A stretch of 35,914 nt of DNA. Origin: Komarekiella atlantica HA4396-MV6. GTDB lineage: Bacteria; Cyanobacteriota; Cyanobacteriia; Cyanobacteriales; Nostocaceae. This document shows positions 29,257 through 35,759 of this stretch, piece by piece (position 1 is the first letter of the stretch; every line of letters begins with the position of its first letter). The translations under genes were made by a program, and so were the position numbers. A model generated the notes under the pieces. That model saw only the letters and a list, made by a program, of their open reading frames with translations, had not been told where the DNA came from and made no database searches. The stretch lies in contig JAHHHK010000050.1 of the NCBI GenBank assembly GCA_019359395.1, positions 1 through 35,914 on the forward strand, in the 5' to 3' direction.

Positions 29257-31437
29257 TTACTTTTTGTTGTTAGCTTTTTCTAACATACTTGAGCTTTGGA
29301 ATAAACTGTCACATTTGTTTTCTACGACTACGCACATATGGCTGAGTGCTTGCTGGTAATTATCCATATCGTCTTGCTCAAGAGATATTTTAGCAGCTGT
29401 TTGTAAATCCTCAATAGCTTGCGTACGGTTTTGGTTAGATTTAGTGCCACTATATTGTGAAAGTTCATAACGAACCATACCTCGTTTAAGATACACTTTC
29501 GCTAGCTTGGGATTGAGATTTAGTGCTTGATTAAAGTTGGCTATTGCTTCTTTGTATTCTTGAGCGTAATCGCTGCTATATTGAGCGATTTGATAATAGG
29601 CAACACCGCGCTGAAAATAAGCTTCTGTTTTGGAAGAATTGAGGTCTATTGCTTCGGTAAAATCTGCTATGGCTTTTCTATAACCTTTTTGAGAATCACC
29701 GCTGTATTTAGCAATTTGAGCGCGGACAATACCTCGCCTAATTAAAGCTTCTACTTCATTACTATCGAGGCGTAGGGCATTATTAAAGTCTGCGATCGCC
29801 AGGTTATACTCTTTGTCAGGGTCGTTACTATATTCAGCGAGCATATAGAGAGCATTACCCCGATTCACAAAAGCTTTAATTTCTTGAGGATTGATTTGCA
29901 GAGCTTGGCTATAGTCTGTACGTGCGCCTTCATAGTCTTTCAAATTGTAGCGGGCATTGCCCCGATTGACGCGAGCTTTCGCATTTTTGGGATCTTTTCC
30001 TATTGCTTGACTGAAGTTTTCAATTGCTAGATCATAGTCTCGCACTTTGTAAGCAGCATGACCCTGTTTATAATAATCTGCGAAGCTAAGAGTATCTTTT
30101 TTAATTGGCTGACGAGGCTTTAATGTTTGTTGAGTGTAAGCATTTTGGAAAACAAACGGACGAGTAAATTTAATCATTACGTCCAAATATCCCAAAACAC
30201 CAAAACCCAGCAAGCAACAAATAATCGGGTATAATTTTGGTCTTCTGGAAGGTTGATAAGGCGCAACACTTTGGGTAATTGGCTGCCAATAATTGACTGC
30301 GTGCGTTGGTATGCCTGGCTGTGGTGAACGTGGAGTTTGATTGTAGCGTCTTTTCGATTTGATTCGCGGTTGTAGATGTTCTCTACTTTCTATAGCCCGA
30401 TGGGATGGAAAGGGGTCACGTCCGCCTAATCGCGATGTTCGTTCACACCAGGGACAGCTTTGCAGATGATTGTTGTAGCGATGCTGGGGATTTACAGTAC
30501 AGCTAATCAGGCTATCTTCGGCTTCAGCTAGTGCCGATAGCCAGGTTTGAGCGCTAGGGCGTAGGTGTGGGCTGTTGTGACCTTCTTCAAAACAACGCAC
30601 AAATAATTCTTGTAAGTTGGGATGGAGAATTTCCCAAGCGGGTGCAATTGGGGTAGGCAGGTAGGGTACGCGCCGCTGTTTACTGTAAGTAAAATGTCCA
30701 GCAGCAATGCGTGCTTCATAGGGGGGTGGCTCAACAGCGCCTTGAAAGATGCCAGAAAATGGGTGCGTGCCTTCCATTAATAATTGGAATACCAGCACTG
30801 CTAACCCAAATAAGTCGTGGGAAATTTCGCGATCGTGTTGGGCAAAAGTTTTATTCTGTAGTTCTGGTGGGGTAAACTCTGGTTTACCCACTGAGCAGCG
30901 GTAAACAATATGGTTGCTTGGGTCGCGTACTTGGAAAGAATCTGTGTCTACCAAGGTAACGAGTGCTGTATCGCTGACGAGGATATTTGACTCATTCACA
31001 TCGCCAACGCAATATCCACTAGCGTGTAGAGCAGCGAAAGCCGCCGCTAGGTTCCGAGCCGTGCGGAGCAGGTATTGATAATTGAATAAAGGGCAGTGTT
31101 GGCGACGGGTTCTGGGGTTGTAAAAGTCGATGATTGGACGCATCCCTTGAATGCGTGGCATTAAGAAGCCGATGACGCCACCGCTGCCATCTGCCGATCG
31201 CAATAAAACTTCTGGCCAAGCGATGGAGATATGCCCTAAACTAGCCGTAGGGTTTTCCGGCGGGTTGGCAAGCATCGCCTGGAGTTTGTCAGCATGGGCA
31301 ACAGTTGGCTTGTGATAAATCTTTGCCACCATATTGCTATCGGATGGCAGTGCATAGACACAAGCTTCACCGCCACGACCCAGACTGACACTGAGGTTGA
31401 GAATTTCTTGCTTAGGAAGACAACGTAGTACCTGCAT
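29257..31437 (-). CDS. YegI-type protein kinase with zinc ribbon-like motif, one membrane segment and TPR repeats
   Basis: A 726-residue protein. Residues 15-300 are a Ser/Thr kinase-like domain of the TerY-P/YegI group: glycine loop LGRGGEACVY, Lys39 in VAKIY, catalytic Asp146 and Asn151 in GDVNESN, and DTD (164-166) in place of DFG. A Cys/His cluster follows (C313, H324, C328, C331; CPWC). After a basic linker there is one membrane segment at about 403-422. Residues 452-700 form about six TPR units, several with inserts (AEYSNDPDKEY). The positive charges before the membrane segment put the kinase inside and the TPRs outside, by the positive-inside rule. It is the third gene of the triad, paired with a PP2C phosphatase and a vWA protein. 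The target is unknown. Confidence 0.92.
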   Translation of the reverse strand: MQVLRCLPKQEILNLSVSLGRGGEACVYALPSDSNMVAKIYHKPTVAHADKLQAMLANPPENPTASLGHISIAWPEVLLRSADGSGGVIGFLMPRIQGMRPIIDFYNPRTRRQHCPLFNYQYLLRTARNLAAAFAALHASGYCVGDVNESNILVSDTALVTLVDTDSFQVRDPSNHIVYRCSVGKPEFTPPELQNKTFAQHDREISHDLFGLAVLVFQLLMEGTHPFSGIFQGAVEPPPYEARIAAGHFTYSKQRRVPYLPTPIAPAWEILHPNLQELFVRCFEEGHNSPHLRPSAQTWLSALAEAEDSLISCTVNPQHRYNNHLQSCPWCERTSRLGGRDPFPSHRAIESREHLQPRIKSKRRYNQTPRSPQPGIPTHAVNYWQPITQSVAPYQPSRRPKLYPIICCLLGFGVLGYLDVMIKFTRPFVFQNAYTQQTLKPRQPIKKDTLSFADYYKQGHAAYKVRDYDLAIENFSQAIGKDPKNAKARVNRGNARYNLKDYEGARTDYSQALQINPQEIKAFVNRGNALYMLAEYSNDPDKEYNLAIADFNNALRLDSNEVEALIRRGIVRAQIAKYSGDSQKGYRKAIADFTEAIDLNSSKTEAYFQRGVAYYQIAQYSSDYAQEYKEAIANFNQALNLNPKLAKVYLKRGMVRYELSQYSGTKSNQNRTQAIEDLQTAAKISLEQDDMDNYQQALSHMCVVVENKCDSLFQSSSMLEKANNKK

Positions 31438-31490: not shown

Positions 31491-32273
31491 CTATGAGTTG
31501 CTCAATGCAGCAATAATGAGTGTTAAATCGTCATCAGTGCGTTGCGTAATCCGCTCTGAGCGTAAAAAGCTTACCAACTGTTCTTTTGCCACTGTCTTAT
31601 CCTCAGAATTCGCTACAAACTCAAACAGAGGAAAAAAGAACGGTTTATGAGGTTCACTAACAACCATATTCAAAGCCAGCATTTGTAGTCCGTCGGTAAG
31701 GACACCAACATTGATTATGTCTTCACGCCATAATCTCATCTGCGCTGTATCTAAAGCACTGGCCGAAGTCAAAAAAGTGGTTTCGTTGATGTATTCGCCG
31801 CTGTCAGGCATGGTTAGTGCGAGGAGGTTGCCCATGCTATCTTTGGCTACGGCCAAACCATCACCTATCTGTGCCACAGCTACAACTTCTGGCGTGGCAA
31901 CCAGAAGAATTAAGGTAGTCGCTAATTCTTGAGGCTGTTTATTACAAGCAGCCGCCTCATCTTCCACAGCTTTTTTGGCGGCCACCATCGCCTCGCTCAA
32001 TAGCGATCGCACATTGGTATCATCAGTCAAGAACTTCCGGGTAACTTGTTTGATGGAAATATTTTCTATTGCTGTTTCCACAGCAACCATTGCCCCCACT
32101 TTCCCCTGGCTTGCTGAACCTGCACCATCTGCTGCCGCTACTACTAAAACATTATCTGATAATATCTGCCAGTGGTGAGCGTCTTGACACAACTGCTTGT
32201 TCTTTAAGTGGCTTGTACCACATACAGACGCAGCTACTACCCGCCATTGAGCAATCTGTTTTGATGTGTTCAT
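31491..32273 (-). CDS. PP2C-family Ser/Thr phosphatase (PphC/YegK-like)
   Basis: A 260-residue PP2C domain with the metal-binding acids in order: D31 in CQDAH, D49 in AADGAGSA, D138 in QIGDG, D194 in LTDG and D247/D248 in TDDDLTLI. There is no signal peptide or membrane segment, so it is cytosolic. It probably reverses phosphorylation by the kinase encoded 53 bases downstream, as in the yegL-yegK-yegI arrangement of E. coli, and may act on the vWA protein or its partner. It lies 51 bases after the vWA gene in one operon. Confidence 0.92.
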   Translation of the reverse strand: MNTSKQIAQWRVVAASVCGTSHLKNKQLCQDAHHWQILSDNVLVVAAADGAGSASQGKVGAMVAVETAIENISIKQVTRKFLTDDTNVRSLLSEAMVAAKKAVEDEAAACNKQPQELATTLILLVATPEVVAVAQIGDGLAVAKDSMGNLLALTMPDSGEYINETTFLTSASALDTAQMRLWREDIINVGVLTDGLQMLALNMVVSEPHKPFFFPLFEFVANSEDKTVAKEQLVSFLRSERITQRTDDDLTLIIAALSNS

Positions 32274-32324: not shown

Positions 32325-32999
32325 TTAAACAGCCCCCCAGCCAATTGGTGGTAGTGCCACCTGTTCGTCTACCTGTGAATGGGAAACAGCTGACATACTA
32401 GCTGACAGCCAGACAAACATCTCGATAAAGTTTAGACCTTTGAGTTTTAGAGGAGTACGCACAGTAATTTGATTTAAGCGCGTCATGTTCGCGTTTTCGA
32501 CACCGACAGTAAAGAAAGCTACACGTTTGCTTGCTTCATCTCCTTGTAGGCGCTGCGCCGCTTGCTCTACCACATTGTCTTGCTCACCCTGTGGCTCACC
32601 ATCAGTGATCATAAATACCCAAGGACGATAGTAAGCAATGCCGTTAGAACGATATTGAGATTTGCGCTCTTGAATTATGTCCAAGGCTTTATGAATTCCC
32701 GAACCCATCGTAGTCAGTCCTTGTGCTGTCAAAATGGGGGGATTGAATTGATCAGCAGTCACAAAATCTTGCACTACGTTGACATTGCTATCAAAGGTAA
32801 CTATCGCTACCTCTACCCGTCTTGCTGCCAAGGAATTTTTCACTAATTCATCTTTCAAACTCAGCAACCCCTGATTTAAAGCCTCAATCGGCTCTCCTTG
32901 CATTGAGCCAGATGTGTCTAGTAGTAGCACGCACGGACAACGTGGTTCTGGGTTTTCCGCAAACTCCACAACTTCATCAAGTCTTAATGTATCATGCAT
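32325..32999 (-). CDS. TerY/YegL-like von Willebrand factor A protein
   Basis: A vWA domain with a full metal-ion-dependent adhesion site. Numbered from an upstream GTG at 33074, these are D53-T-S-G-S57 in LLLDTSGSM, T121/T122 in GLTTMGSG and D158 in ITDGEP. The run EFAENPEPRCPCVLLLDTSG is close to the E. coli YegL start. The ATG at 32999 gives 13 residues before that run, as in the family, and is preferred; GTG at 33074 would add 25 residues but neither start has a good ribosome site. It is first of the triad, before the phosphatase and kinase. Such proteins are thought to serve as binding scaffolds in Ter-type stress signalling; the ligand is unknown. Confidence 0.9.
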   Translation of the reverse strand: MHDTLRLDEVVEFAENPEPRCPCVLLLDTSGSMQGEPIEALNQGLLSLKDELVKNSLAARRVEVAIVTFDSNVNVVQDFVTADQFNPPILTAQGLTTMGSGIHKALDIIQERKSQYRSNGIAYYRPWVFMITDGEPQGEQDNVVEQAAQRLQGDEASKRVAFFTVGVENANMTRLNQITVRTPLKLKGLNFIEMFVWLSASMSAVSHSQVDEQVALPPIGWGAV

Positions 33000-33183
33000 A
33001 ACTTTTTGTGTTATGTTATAGTCCAAAGCTTTATTTACCTCGTTCTCAAAGTATATAGTTTCTGATGCCGACACGACTACAGATATGATGTTTGGCAGTA
33101 GATACTTTAATTTTTATTAAACAGAATATTTTCACAAGAATCTCTACATATTTAAGGAACTCTTAATCACGACTAGACTGCGT

Positions 33184-33312
33184 TTAATAAATAAAGAATT
33201 TATCAGGAGCTAACATTACCTGTTGTAGTGGATCTACCAAAAATTCTATCTCTTCATAACTAGGATACAATAAATACGTAAATATTCCTAGATAAGTTTT
33301 TAAAGATTTCAT
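33184..33312 (-). CDS. Small protein of 42 residues with a strong ribosome site, unrecognised
   Basis: Minus-strand ATG at 33312, stop at 33184. GGAGG (33322-33326 on the plus strand as CCTCC) lies 9 bases before the ATG, one of the strongest Shine-Dalgarno sites in the window. The peptide starts MKSLKTYLGIFTYLLYPSYE, continues EIEFLVDPLQQVMLAPD and ends KFFIY. It is aromatic and acidic with no clear membrane helix, signal peptide or cysteines. It is co-directional with the vWA gene 184 bases downstream (110 to the GTG) and may be the first gene of that operon or have its own promoter. I do not recognise the family. Length is below usual annotation cut-offs, so it may be missed by gene callers. 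Confidence 0.6.
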   Translation of the reverse strand: MKSLKTYLGIFTYLLYPSYEEIEFLVDPLQQVMLAPDKFFIY

Positions 33313-33750
33313 GTAGTAAAACCTCCATTTTATATAAAAGTAATTAATCCTAATTAAGACCATCAGACTTCAAAGTATACTCACGTAACTGTGTGAACTT
33401 TACATCAAAATTGCTTAGCAAGTAAGTAGGGCGTAAATAAACATAATTGTTAAGGTCTTGAGCCAATAGTTATCGTTAGGGAGGGTAACTGACAACTAAA
33501 CTGACGCCTGCTGAAATTGTCATGACAAATATTTACATTTTTTTGTGCCTACTTAACTTAAATTTTCAGACTTGTTATCAAACGTGCCAAATGTAACAAA
33601 AAAGTTATGAAAATTATAATTTGTAATATATATACATATTTAAACAAATAATTTGTGTATAGAGAAATATTAAAAAGAAGAGAATACTTCAGAGCCGATA
33701 TTTCCCATTTACGAATATTTAGTCGCTGATCCGCAAAAAAATCAAAAAAC
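33313..33750. promoter_or_regulatory. 438-base divergent regulatory region
   Basis: Lies between the small ORF (minus) and the PatA-like gene (plus). AT-rich, with a long low-GC block at 33590-33680 (TAATATATATACATATTT) that may hold the plus-strand promoter. No tRNA, repeat array or further ORF with a ribosome site was found. Confidence 0.45.
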
Positions 33751-35136
33751 ATGAATAACTCAGGTACATTTACTAAATTACGTCCTCAGAGTTTGTTAAA
33801 ACAGTTATTTAATTGTTCTGAGAGTATTTGTTTACAAGTATTTAGCAACTCAGTTTCCTGGTGGATTTATTTAGAGCAAGGCAAGATAATCTATGCTACC
33901 CATTCAATTGAACCCTTTGATCGATTAGAACGTCATTTGCGTCGCCTTAGCCATCAAATTCCATCACTTACTAATGAAGTTCGTGTTCAATTACGTCTGA
34001 TGTTTGAATCAGATACACATAGTCAAGTAGTAGAACATGAGAGGAACTCTAAAAATCAGCCTCCTGAATATCAAGCTATACAATGGCTTATTAGTCAACA
34101 ATATCTACATTCTACACAAGCAGCAGTACTGATTCCAGAATTGGTTAAAGAGGTGCTTGAATCATTTTTACTGATCAAAAAAGGTACTTATGAACTAACA
34201 GAAGCACTTAATAGAATGCCAATCATTTGCAGATTGAATGTAGAAAATGTTTTAGAACGCTGTCAAGCACGATTAGAGAGTTGGAAGTCTTTCGAGCCTC
34301 AAATTTCTTCTCCCTATCAACGTCCATATCTGTTAATTACTGGTAAACCTTCTAAACAAAACTTACCAGAACTCCAACCAAATTTAACTAACTGGATGAA
34401 GGGTTTTAGCTTACGTCATCTTGCTGTGATTATGAATCAAGACGAAATCGAACTAGCCCACAATTTATACCCTTACATCATTCAGGGAGGAATTATCTTA
34501 CATGAGCCAGATCCACCATTTGATCAGTTACCAAATACATTGGAAGATTTAGCACAATCTTCTAAATTGATAACATTAGTTGATGTTATAGATGAACTAA
34601 GTACCACTAATAGTAAAGCTTACCCAGGTATTTTTGAAGATAATAAAACTAATGTTGAGCAATTACCACAAGTTTCTGAATCTTTAAAAGAAAACCTTCA
34701 GAAATTCACAATAACCAATAATATAAATCCTGCTTCTGAAAGAGTAATACCTGCTACTGTAACTGGCAAAAAAACCTACAAAATTGTTTCTGTAGATGAT
34801 AGCCCCACAATTCTCAAAGAAATTAGCCGTTTTTTAGAAAATGAAAACTTTTCTGTTGTGACGATTAACGAGCCATTAAAAGCTGTGATGTCGATTATCC
34901 GGCACAAACCAGACTTAATTTTATTGGATCTTAACATGGTAGGAATTGATGGATATGAGTTGTGCCAGATTATACGAAATAACTCACTATTTAAAGAAAT
35001 ACCGATTATTTTTGTAACAGGAAACAAGGGGCTTGTAGACAAAGTAAAAGCCAGATTAGTAGGAGCATCTGGATATCTCACTAAACCTTTTACTCGCGCG
35101 GAATTATTGAAGATAGTGTTCATGCATCTGATTTAG
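33751..35136 (+). CDS. PatA-family response regulator (PATAN domain plus C-terminal receiver)
   Basis: A 461-residue protein. The N-terminal 250 residues are a PATAN/DUF4388-like domain, recognisable by LKQLF...GKIIYATHS and FDRLERHLRRL. A poorly conserved linker follows, and a receiver domain starts at about 344: acidic pair D349/D350 in SVDDS, phospho-acceptor D393 in LLDLNM, and K445 in YLTKPF. There is no DNA-binding output domain. PatA in Anabaena is of this architecture and controls heterocyst pattern; other members control motility and development. The protein is longer than PatA itself (about 380 residues, from memory), so it is a paralogue rather than PatA. The ATG has no clear ribosome site. 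It is divergent from the triad and far from a kinase gene of the two-component type. Confidence 0.88.
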   Translation: MNNSGTFTKLRPQSLLKQLFNCSESICLQVFSNSVSWWIYLEQGKIIYATHSIEPFDRLERHLRRLSHQIPSLTNEVRVQLRLMFESDTHSQVVEHERNSKNQPPEYQAIQWLISQQYLHSTQAAVLIPELVKEVLESFLLIKKGTYELTEALNRMPIICRLNVENVLERCQARLESWKSFEPQISSPYQRPYLLITGKPSKQNLPELQPNLTNWMKGFSLRHLAVIMNQDEIELAHNLYPYIIQGGIILHEPDPPFDQLPNTLEDLAQSSKLITLVDVIDELSTTNSKAYPGIFEDNKTNVEQLPQVSESLKENLQKFTITNNINPASERVIPATVTGKKTYKIVSVDDSPTILKEISRFLENENFSVVTINEPLKAVMSIIRHKPDLILLDLNMVGIDGYELCQIIRNNSLFKEIPIIFVTGNKGLVDKVKARLVGASGYLTKPFTRAELLKIVFMHLI

Positions 35137-35253: not shown

Positions 35254-35460
35254 ATGTACATGGCTATTAATCTAGAAATTGACGAAAACTTAATTCAGGA
35301 AGCACTCGAACTTGGTGGTGATCGTACTAAGCGTGCCGTTGTTGAAGAAGCATTGCGAGAGTATGTGCAGCGTCGAAAGCAACTGAAAATTATAGAACTA
35401 TTTGGCACGATTGAATACGACGATGATTATGATTACAAACAACAGCGCCAGAGAGGATGA
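35254..35460 (+). CDS. vapB: VapB-type antitoxin
   Basis: A 68-residue protein, or 66 from the second ATG at 35260. It begins MAINLEIDENLIQEALELGG, then RTKRAVVEEALREYVQRRKQ and an acidic tail (EYDDDYDY). This is the ribbon-helix-helix-like VapB family that binds its own promoter and neutralises a PIN-domain toxin. The stop overlaps the toxin start by 4 bases (ATGA), the classic coupled layout. Confidence 0.88.
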   Translation: MYMAINLEIDENLIQEALELGGDRTKRAVVEEALREYVQRRKQLKIIELFGTIEYDDDYDYKQQRQRG

Positions 35461-35759
35461 AAGTCATTGTTGATACTTCAGTTTGGTCTTTAGCTCTCAG
35501 ACGCGCTAGCAAAGCTGACGACTCACCTTATATTGCATTATTTCATGAATTAATTACGGATGGTCGAGTTGCTTTGCTGGGTGCTGTTCGGCAAGAGGTA
35601 CTTTGCAAAATTCGTCACGCTAACCAATATAATCGGCTTAAAAATTATCTCCGCGCATTTCCAAATCTTGACTTAGAGATTGAAGACTACGAACTTGCTT
35701 CTGAGTTTTATAAGAGGATGTTTGTAAAGTCTAAGATGGTTAAAAATGTCATTCTGTAG
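35457..35759 (+). pseudogene. vapC: VapC-type PIN toxin, C-terminally truncated
   Basis: One hundred residues against about 130 for the family. The start is intact: MKVIVDTSVWSLALRR with catalytic Asp6 and a second acid at Glu47 in VRQEV. Normal similarity ends near ELASEFY (79-85). The last 15 residues (KRMFVKSKMVKNVIL) are unlike the family, and the third and fourth catalytic acids and the end of the fold are missing. The stop lies at the edge of a repeat-like block (TAGACGCTTCTGCGGCTTCCCGCAGGG, key words GCGGCTTCCCGCAGGG). A frameshift or repeat insertion probably destroyed the toxin, leaving vapB able to act alone. Confidence 0.8.

Follow-up and report, generated by a model that had tools for sequence, protein, structure and literature searches.

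Does the 42-codon ORF that precedes a vWA–PP2C–kinase triad in Komarekiella atlantica HA4396-MV6 belong to a gene, and if so, is it the peptide or the act of translation that selection keeps? We addressed this question in a window of 35,914 nucleotides, the whole stretch of DNA that was analysed, and in the corresponding spacers of other genomes of the family. The preliminary description of the window had proposed an overlooked small gene opened by a strong ribosome site, perhaps an adaptor or regulator of the TerY-P system or a heterocyst-related protein. In Nostoc, the sister genus, the avoidance of stops and frameshifts supports a translated frame that had been overlooked next to the vWA gene; its start, its length and its likely role differ from those proposed.

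The 42-codon ORF and its neighbours

The ORF lies on the strand of the triad, in the spacer between the vWA gene and a divergent gene. Codons are numbered from its ATG, with negative numbers upstream.

29257 to 31437, minus strand: kinase-like TPR protein of the triad (Pkinase match of 28.2 bits, under the cut-off of 31.7)
31491 to 32273, minus strand: PP2C phosphatase of the triad, PP2C_2 (PF13672)
32325 to 32999, minus strand: vWA (TerY-like) gene, PF00092; start corrected to the ATG at 32999 or to a TTG nine codons upstream
33077 to 33079, minus strand: corresponds to codon 76, where the Nostoc frame usually stops; TAG or TAA in 50 of 50 aligned triplets
33184 to 33312, minus strand: 42-codon ORF, ATG to TAA, with a local ATG and GGAGG; the shortened 3' part, on our best reading, of a conserved frame
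33184 to 33363, minus strand: in-frame extension of the ORF to the ATG at 33363 (codon -17), 59 codons
33751 to 35136, plus strand: divergent DUF4388-receiver gene, the syntenic neighbour

We take the vWA, PP2C and kinase genes to be a TerY-P triad and the divergent gene to be of the PATAN-REC type. The spacer between the vWA gene and the divergent gene is syntenic through the family. A vWA match at E-values up to 1e-60 was obtained in 215 of the 217 genomes of the family. Of 80 spacers, 78 have the divergent neighbour and two are truncated by the end of a contig; 19 of 20 additional spacers also have it. The start codon of the vWA gene at 32999 is ATG in 78 of the 80 spacers and in all 20 of the further ones; homology together with this conserved ATG speaks against the mechanically assigned start, GTG at 33074.

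The anatomy that had drawn attention to the ORF is present as described: GGAGG, nine bases and then ATG, on the triad's strand. Taken alone it is not above chance. The window holds one ATG ORF of 40–80 codons with GGAGG at Shine–Dalgarno (SD) distance, and dinucleotide shuffles of the window (n=40) hold 0.3 comparable ORFs on average, with at least one in 11 of the 40. When any four-base SD core is accepted in place of GGAGG, five ORFs are observed against 4.5 expected. The evidence for a frame therefore comes from the comparison of genomes.

That comparison shows the proposed start at 33312 to be local. All five genomes of the window's genus have ATG as the ORF's first codon; 52 of 52 Nostoc have ATA there (the comparison covered 52 of the 53 Nostoc genomes), and 8 of 23 others have ATG. 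GGAGG is found in three of the five window-genus genomes and, as read by eye, in 0 of 52 Nostoc. The 42-codon frame is open in four of the five genomes of the window's genus and broken in the fifth; three of the five carry the upstream ATG at codon -17. The usual Nostoc start, codon -13, falls at 33349–33351 of the window, where the triplet is AGG. The 42-codon ORF is best read as a shortened local form of the Nostoc frame, its new ATG and GGAGG possibly serving as a restart site; with so few genomes, it may just as well be in the course of being lost.

An open frame with defined limits in Nostoc

In Nostoc the typical frame runs from an ATG 13 codons upstream of the window's ORF start to a stop near codon 76. 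Of the 53 genomes, 52 have an ATG at codon -13 or -17, and no strong ribosome site precedes it in the 13 sequences inspected. The frame is 89–94 codons long in 41 of the 53 and at least 79 codons long in 46; the seven frames under 79 codons include two that break early, at 24 and 38 codons. When a start codon is not required, the frame stays open through the conserved block for a median of 119 codons, and the two shifted frames for 6 and 27.

We counted stop gains along the tree and set them against the neutral expectation. In a separate alignment of all 53 Nostoc genomes, codons -12 to 75 gained two stops against 24.8 expected (P about 6e-9). Neither shifted frame is depleted (13 against 15.4 and 26 against 18.3). 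The depletion is seen in both main branches of Nostoc, with no stop gains against 5.4 expected in one (9 genomes) and two against 16.9 in the other (44 genomes). Its limits are the ATG and the stop: the ten-codon bins upstream, as far as codon -13, run roughly at expectation, and the bins from codon -12 to 67 hold at most one stop gain each.

Two simulations agree with this count. In the first, codons -13 to 75 gained one stop against 22.3 expected and none of 100 simulations was as low; four other frames gained 16, 25, 27 and 23 stops against 19.8, 20.7, 31.2 and 20.9; the fifth, an antisense frame, fell below its expectation, with 11 against 23.0. Under an empirical substitution spectrum the frame again gained one stop, against 19.6 expected, with none of 300 simulations as low; none of the five control frames was depleted, and the antisense frame became ordinary (11 against 12.4). 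This spectrum under-predicts stop gains in four of the six frames of a 150 bp upstream control (for example 26 against 12.4), so that the stop-gain test is conservative rather than exact. The stop-gain result overturned our first conclusion, that the stretch was conserved noncoding DNA and not coding.

Both simulations and the ten-codon bins used 50 of the 53 Nostoc genomes, as did the tests of indels, codon rhythm, ω and amino-acid exchanges described below. The three left out comprise two at a contig edge and one under the threshold of the peptide search, which probably missed this genome owing to its broken frame. Since the initial peptide search recovered 52 of the 53 Nostoc genomes, any bias towards open frames is slight.

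Frameshifts are likewise scarce. Three frame-breaking indels were counted in the 168 bp of codons -13 to 42 and four in the 84 bp of codons 43–70, against 23 in the 147 bp just before the frame and 67 in the 239 bp further up. Indels of a multiple of three make up 7 of 14 events in codons -13 to 70, compared with 4 of 27 and 10 of 77 in the two upstream stretches. Codons 71–76 are unprotected, with seven frame-breaking events in 18 bp. Only one of the four events within codons -13 to 42 preserves the frame, and general conservation of the DNA may therefore account for part of the scarcity of indels, substitutions also being fewer here. The indel count of the vWA gene, inflated by end gaps, was set aside.

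At the amino-acid level no selection on the frame is detectable. The codon model gave ω of 0.99 for the Nostoc frame and disfavoured values under about 0.8 and over about 1.25, with 0.8–0.9 within range; the controls were 0.04 for the vWA gene and 0.18 for the divergent gene. For the 42 codons ω was 1.10, and the low dN/dS by which the preliminary description proposed to recognize its peptide did not materialize. Variation shows no codon rhythm across the 42 codons (0.082, 0.078 and 0.074 at the three positions; vWA gene, 0.012, 0.002 and 0.142; divergent gene, 0.058, 0.050 and 0.169). The synonymous fraction, BLOSUM scores and hydropathy of the Nostoc frame all lie at the neutral expectation; an apparent constraint on hydropathy (p 0.007) vanished under the empirical substitution spectrum. 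Among genomes of the window's genus, differing codons divide 0:1, 0:1 and 0:4 into synonymous and nonsynonymous, and 1:5 in the genome with the broken frame.

Searches for a relative of the peptide were negative. Pfam and NCBIfam returned no family match to the small frame and PHROGs only chance-level matches, AlphaFold2 predicted no fold for the Nostoc form (mean pLDDT 38), and a literature search of titles and abstract openings found nothing on the frame. In 60 genomes the peptide also matched weakly within long frames, most of which exceed 1,000 codons; these matches were set aside as near chance (E-values of 0.0144 and weaker per genome) and look like stretches of polyketide acyltransferase.

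The frame across genera and the DNA beneath it

Outside Nostoc the frame is patchy. In genus g4 (eight genomes) the same frame has an open run of 66 codons, and where 4.2 stop gains are expected none is seen. Four of the five genomes of the window's genus have it open for 61 codons, and two of the three in genus g29 for 98–100 codons; in these two the run has no ATG ahead of that of the 42-codon ORF, which opens a frame of 86 codons. In three other genera that have the vWA gene, the same frame is shorter than 60 codons in 11 of 11, 10 of 10 and 13 of 13 genomes, with ordinary stop gains; for genera g79 and g28 the stop-gain comparison covered 10 of 13 and 13 of 16 genomes. Of 29 further genomes of other genera, five have the frame open for at least 60 codons.

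The frame overlies two blocks of conserved DNA and is flanked by promoter-like boxes.

33050 to 33055, minus strand: TATACT inside TATATACT, which is highly conserved; candidate -10 box of the vWA gene
33266 to 33276, minus strand: second conserved block, TATTTATTRTA
33300 to 33316, minus strand: CTACAYRNAATCTTTAA, a conserved noncoding block found with one mismatch or none in 92 of 100 family spacers
33374 to 33379, minus strand: TATACT, candidate -10 box of the small frame

The block CTACAYRNAATCTTTAA occurs with at most one mismatch in all 57 spacers of Nostoc and the window's genus and in 35 of 43 spacers of other genera, and shuffled spacers show at least three mismatches to it in 100 of 100 cases. 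It has one exact copy in its own genome, some 300 bases before the vWA gene. The pattern formed by the two blocks has 42 matches in the named collection, under titles of Nostoc, Desmonostoc, Komarekiella, Atlanticothrix, Amazonocrinis, Rhizonema, aff. Roholtiella or Nostocales; the vWA gene follows 293–321 bases downstream in 41, and the 42nd locus is cut earlier. The position expected of a leader ORF, immediately ahead of the vWA gene on its strand, is thus kept. Judged from the genera compared above, the frame is narrower in its distribution than the DNA block beneath it, and it is probably the younger of the two. The 42-codon ORF is part of a probably translated, lineage-limited frame over an older, family-wide noncoding block.

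The upstream TATACT is exact at its fixed place in 36 of the 53 Nostoc genomes and in four of five genomes of the window's genus. In Nostoc its first base lies 28 bases ahead of the codon -13 ATG; among Nostoc background segments 1 of 211 has an exact TATACT. Genus g4 is without this box, with two mismatches in eight of eight genomes. The surveys of TATACT and of open runs across genera covered the genomes whose best match to the block had at most two mismatches. On the other side, TATATACT of the vWA gene sits shortly past the stop of the small frame. We find no intrinsic terminator in 32900–33900.

The decamer TATACTTTGA has exactly two copies in the window, at 33046–33055 and 33370–33379, both in the spacer and both at -10-like positions; two copies were reached in 3 of 100 shuffles. 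We considered whether the boxes belong to a SigJ-dependent promoter, whose J-Box is described as an extended -10 in which three G precede the hexamer (PMC6495340). This assignment was rejected, as GAG precedes TATACT in the window and mostly TGG in Nostoc.

Possible roles: ribosome passage or a tolerant peptide

Our leading explanation, held tentatively, is that the frame is a leader ORF of the vWA–PP2C–kinase operon in which the passage of ribosomes is kept rather than the peptide. The Nostoc transcript would begin at the TATACT box just upstream of the small frame, and ribosomes would translate the frame and finish just before the vWA promoter. As stops and frameshifts are purged and amino-acid changes hardly at all, what counts is probably that ribosomes traverse the AT-rich leader; their passage might shield the RNA or set the surviving amount of the read-through vWA–PP2C–kinase transcript. 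In the window's genus the frame would have been shortened to end after codon 42, with ATG and GGAGG as a replacement start. The comparison shows the open frame, its limits and the lack of detectable selection on its amino acids; transcription, translation, the shielding role and the effect on the vWA gene are predictions. The candidate separate -10 box before the vWA gene weakens the case for an operon leader. In its fullest form, in which the frame is selected purely for being read, its translation controls the TerY-P operon and it arose within an older noncoding element, we consider the proposal doubtful.

The main rival is a loosely constrained small protein: a young peptide whose product is used and tolerates nearly any missense change, for example a cationic, hydrophobic or disordered one. 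We regard this as possible, if rather unlikely. It would account for the same avoidance of stops and frameshifts, and the -10-like box near the ATG, together with a stop before the vWA promoter, would make the frame a separate unit; restriction to a few genera fits a young gene, and an ω of 0.8–0.9 would be compatible with it. Against it stand the estimate of 0.99, the neutral BLOSUM and hydropathy values, the loss of the hydropathy signal under the empirical spectrum, and a peptide without Pfam or NCBIfam family, with PHROGs matches at chance level and without predicted fold. Less probable still is that the stretch is an untranslated, conserved noncoding regulatory element upstream of the vWA promoter and the ORF an accident. 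The absence of codon periodicity, an ω near 1, a core block kept in family members that lack the open frame, an ORF and SD at chance level in the window and a start codon that is not kept all agree with such an element, but stops are avoided in one frame only, between an ATG and a stop and in both main branches of Nostoc, and frame-breaking indels are fewer inside that frame.

A conserved 42-residue adaptor or regulator of TerY-P starting at 33312, the role first suggested for the ORF, now seems very unlikely. The frame, its GGAGG and its position are real, it is open in four of the five genomes of the window's genus, and in two of the three g29 genomes the same ATG opens the 86-codon frame; against this, the ATG is absent from 52 of 52 Nostoc, there is no synonymous excess, the frame is broken in the fifth window-genus genome, the peptide contains no domain and its Nostoc form has no predicted fold. 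To our knowledge the small frame is no known part of TerY-P. The genes downstream do resemble that system, being three in number and on the same strand, with the vWA and PP2C families matched and the kinase below its cut-off. Unlike a TerY-P component, the small frame is missing from three genera of the family that keep the vWA gene, which argues against a part common to all. Nothing supports the adaptor proposal, nor is there support for a heterocyst-related role. A structured regulatory RNA or sRNA is the least probable reading, close to negligible: conservation of DNA in the absence of codon periodicity would suit it, but Rfam gave no family at the gathering threshold and three sub-threshold matches only, the consensus folding energy was near zero on both strands of 39 spacers (seven divergent or edge genomes dropped, the rest thinned by identity), a test of limited power on AT-rich DNA, the single-strand fold had a z-score of 0.01, and 32900–33900 yielded no intrinsic terminator.

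The preferred reading, a leader kept for ribosome passage, has a partial parallel in ermBL. Like ermBL ahead of ermB (PMC5118997), the small frame lies directly upstream of a gene on the same strand; nonsense changes in ermBL are reported to alter downstream expression together with transcript turnover. Unlike ermBL as described there, the frame reaches up to 98 codons, shows no sign of a sequence-specific stall peptide and is followed by a candidate separate promoter for the downstream vWA gene. The frame also resembles the Norf small proteins of cyanobacteria, small ORFs that earlier annotation had not included and that were then examined as genes for small proteins (PMC5126843). One of them, Norf4, is called highly conserved in a section title of that work; the small frame, by contrast, drifts freely in its amino acids and is limited to a few genera.

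The frame is rejected by a dN/dS screen and absent from the family libraries searched, yet it avoids stops strongly over 53 genomes. It offers a clean case in which selection against nonsense is parted from selection against missense, and a testable candidate for translation that serves regulation without a functional peptide. This suggests that translated frames can escape surveys of small ORFs built on conserved amino acids, and that a start codon which follows a good ribosome site in one genome need not be the ancestral one.

Two further observations concern the side of the divergent gene. A second conserved AT-rich element, ATATGTATATATATTA, lies on the minus strand at 33624–33639, by the DUF4388-receiver gene, and is found in several genera. 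Beyond that gene, a small upstream frame without an NCBIfam match (35254–35460), which we take to be antitoxin-like, is followed by a VapC-family toxin gene. The toxin is 100 aa long and matches only positions 1–83 of the 125-position NCBIfam model, below the cut-off, and the pair (35254–35759) looks broken at its 3' end.
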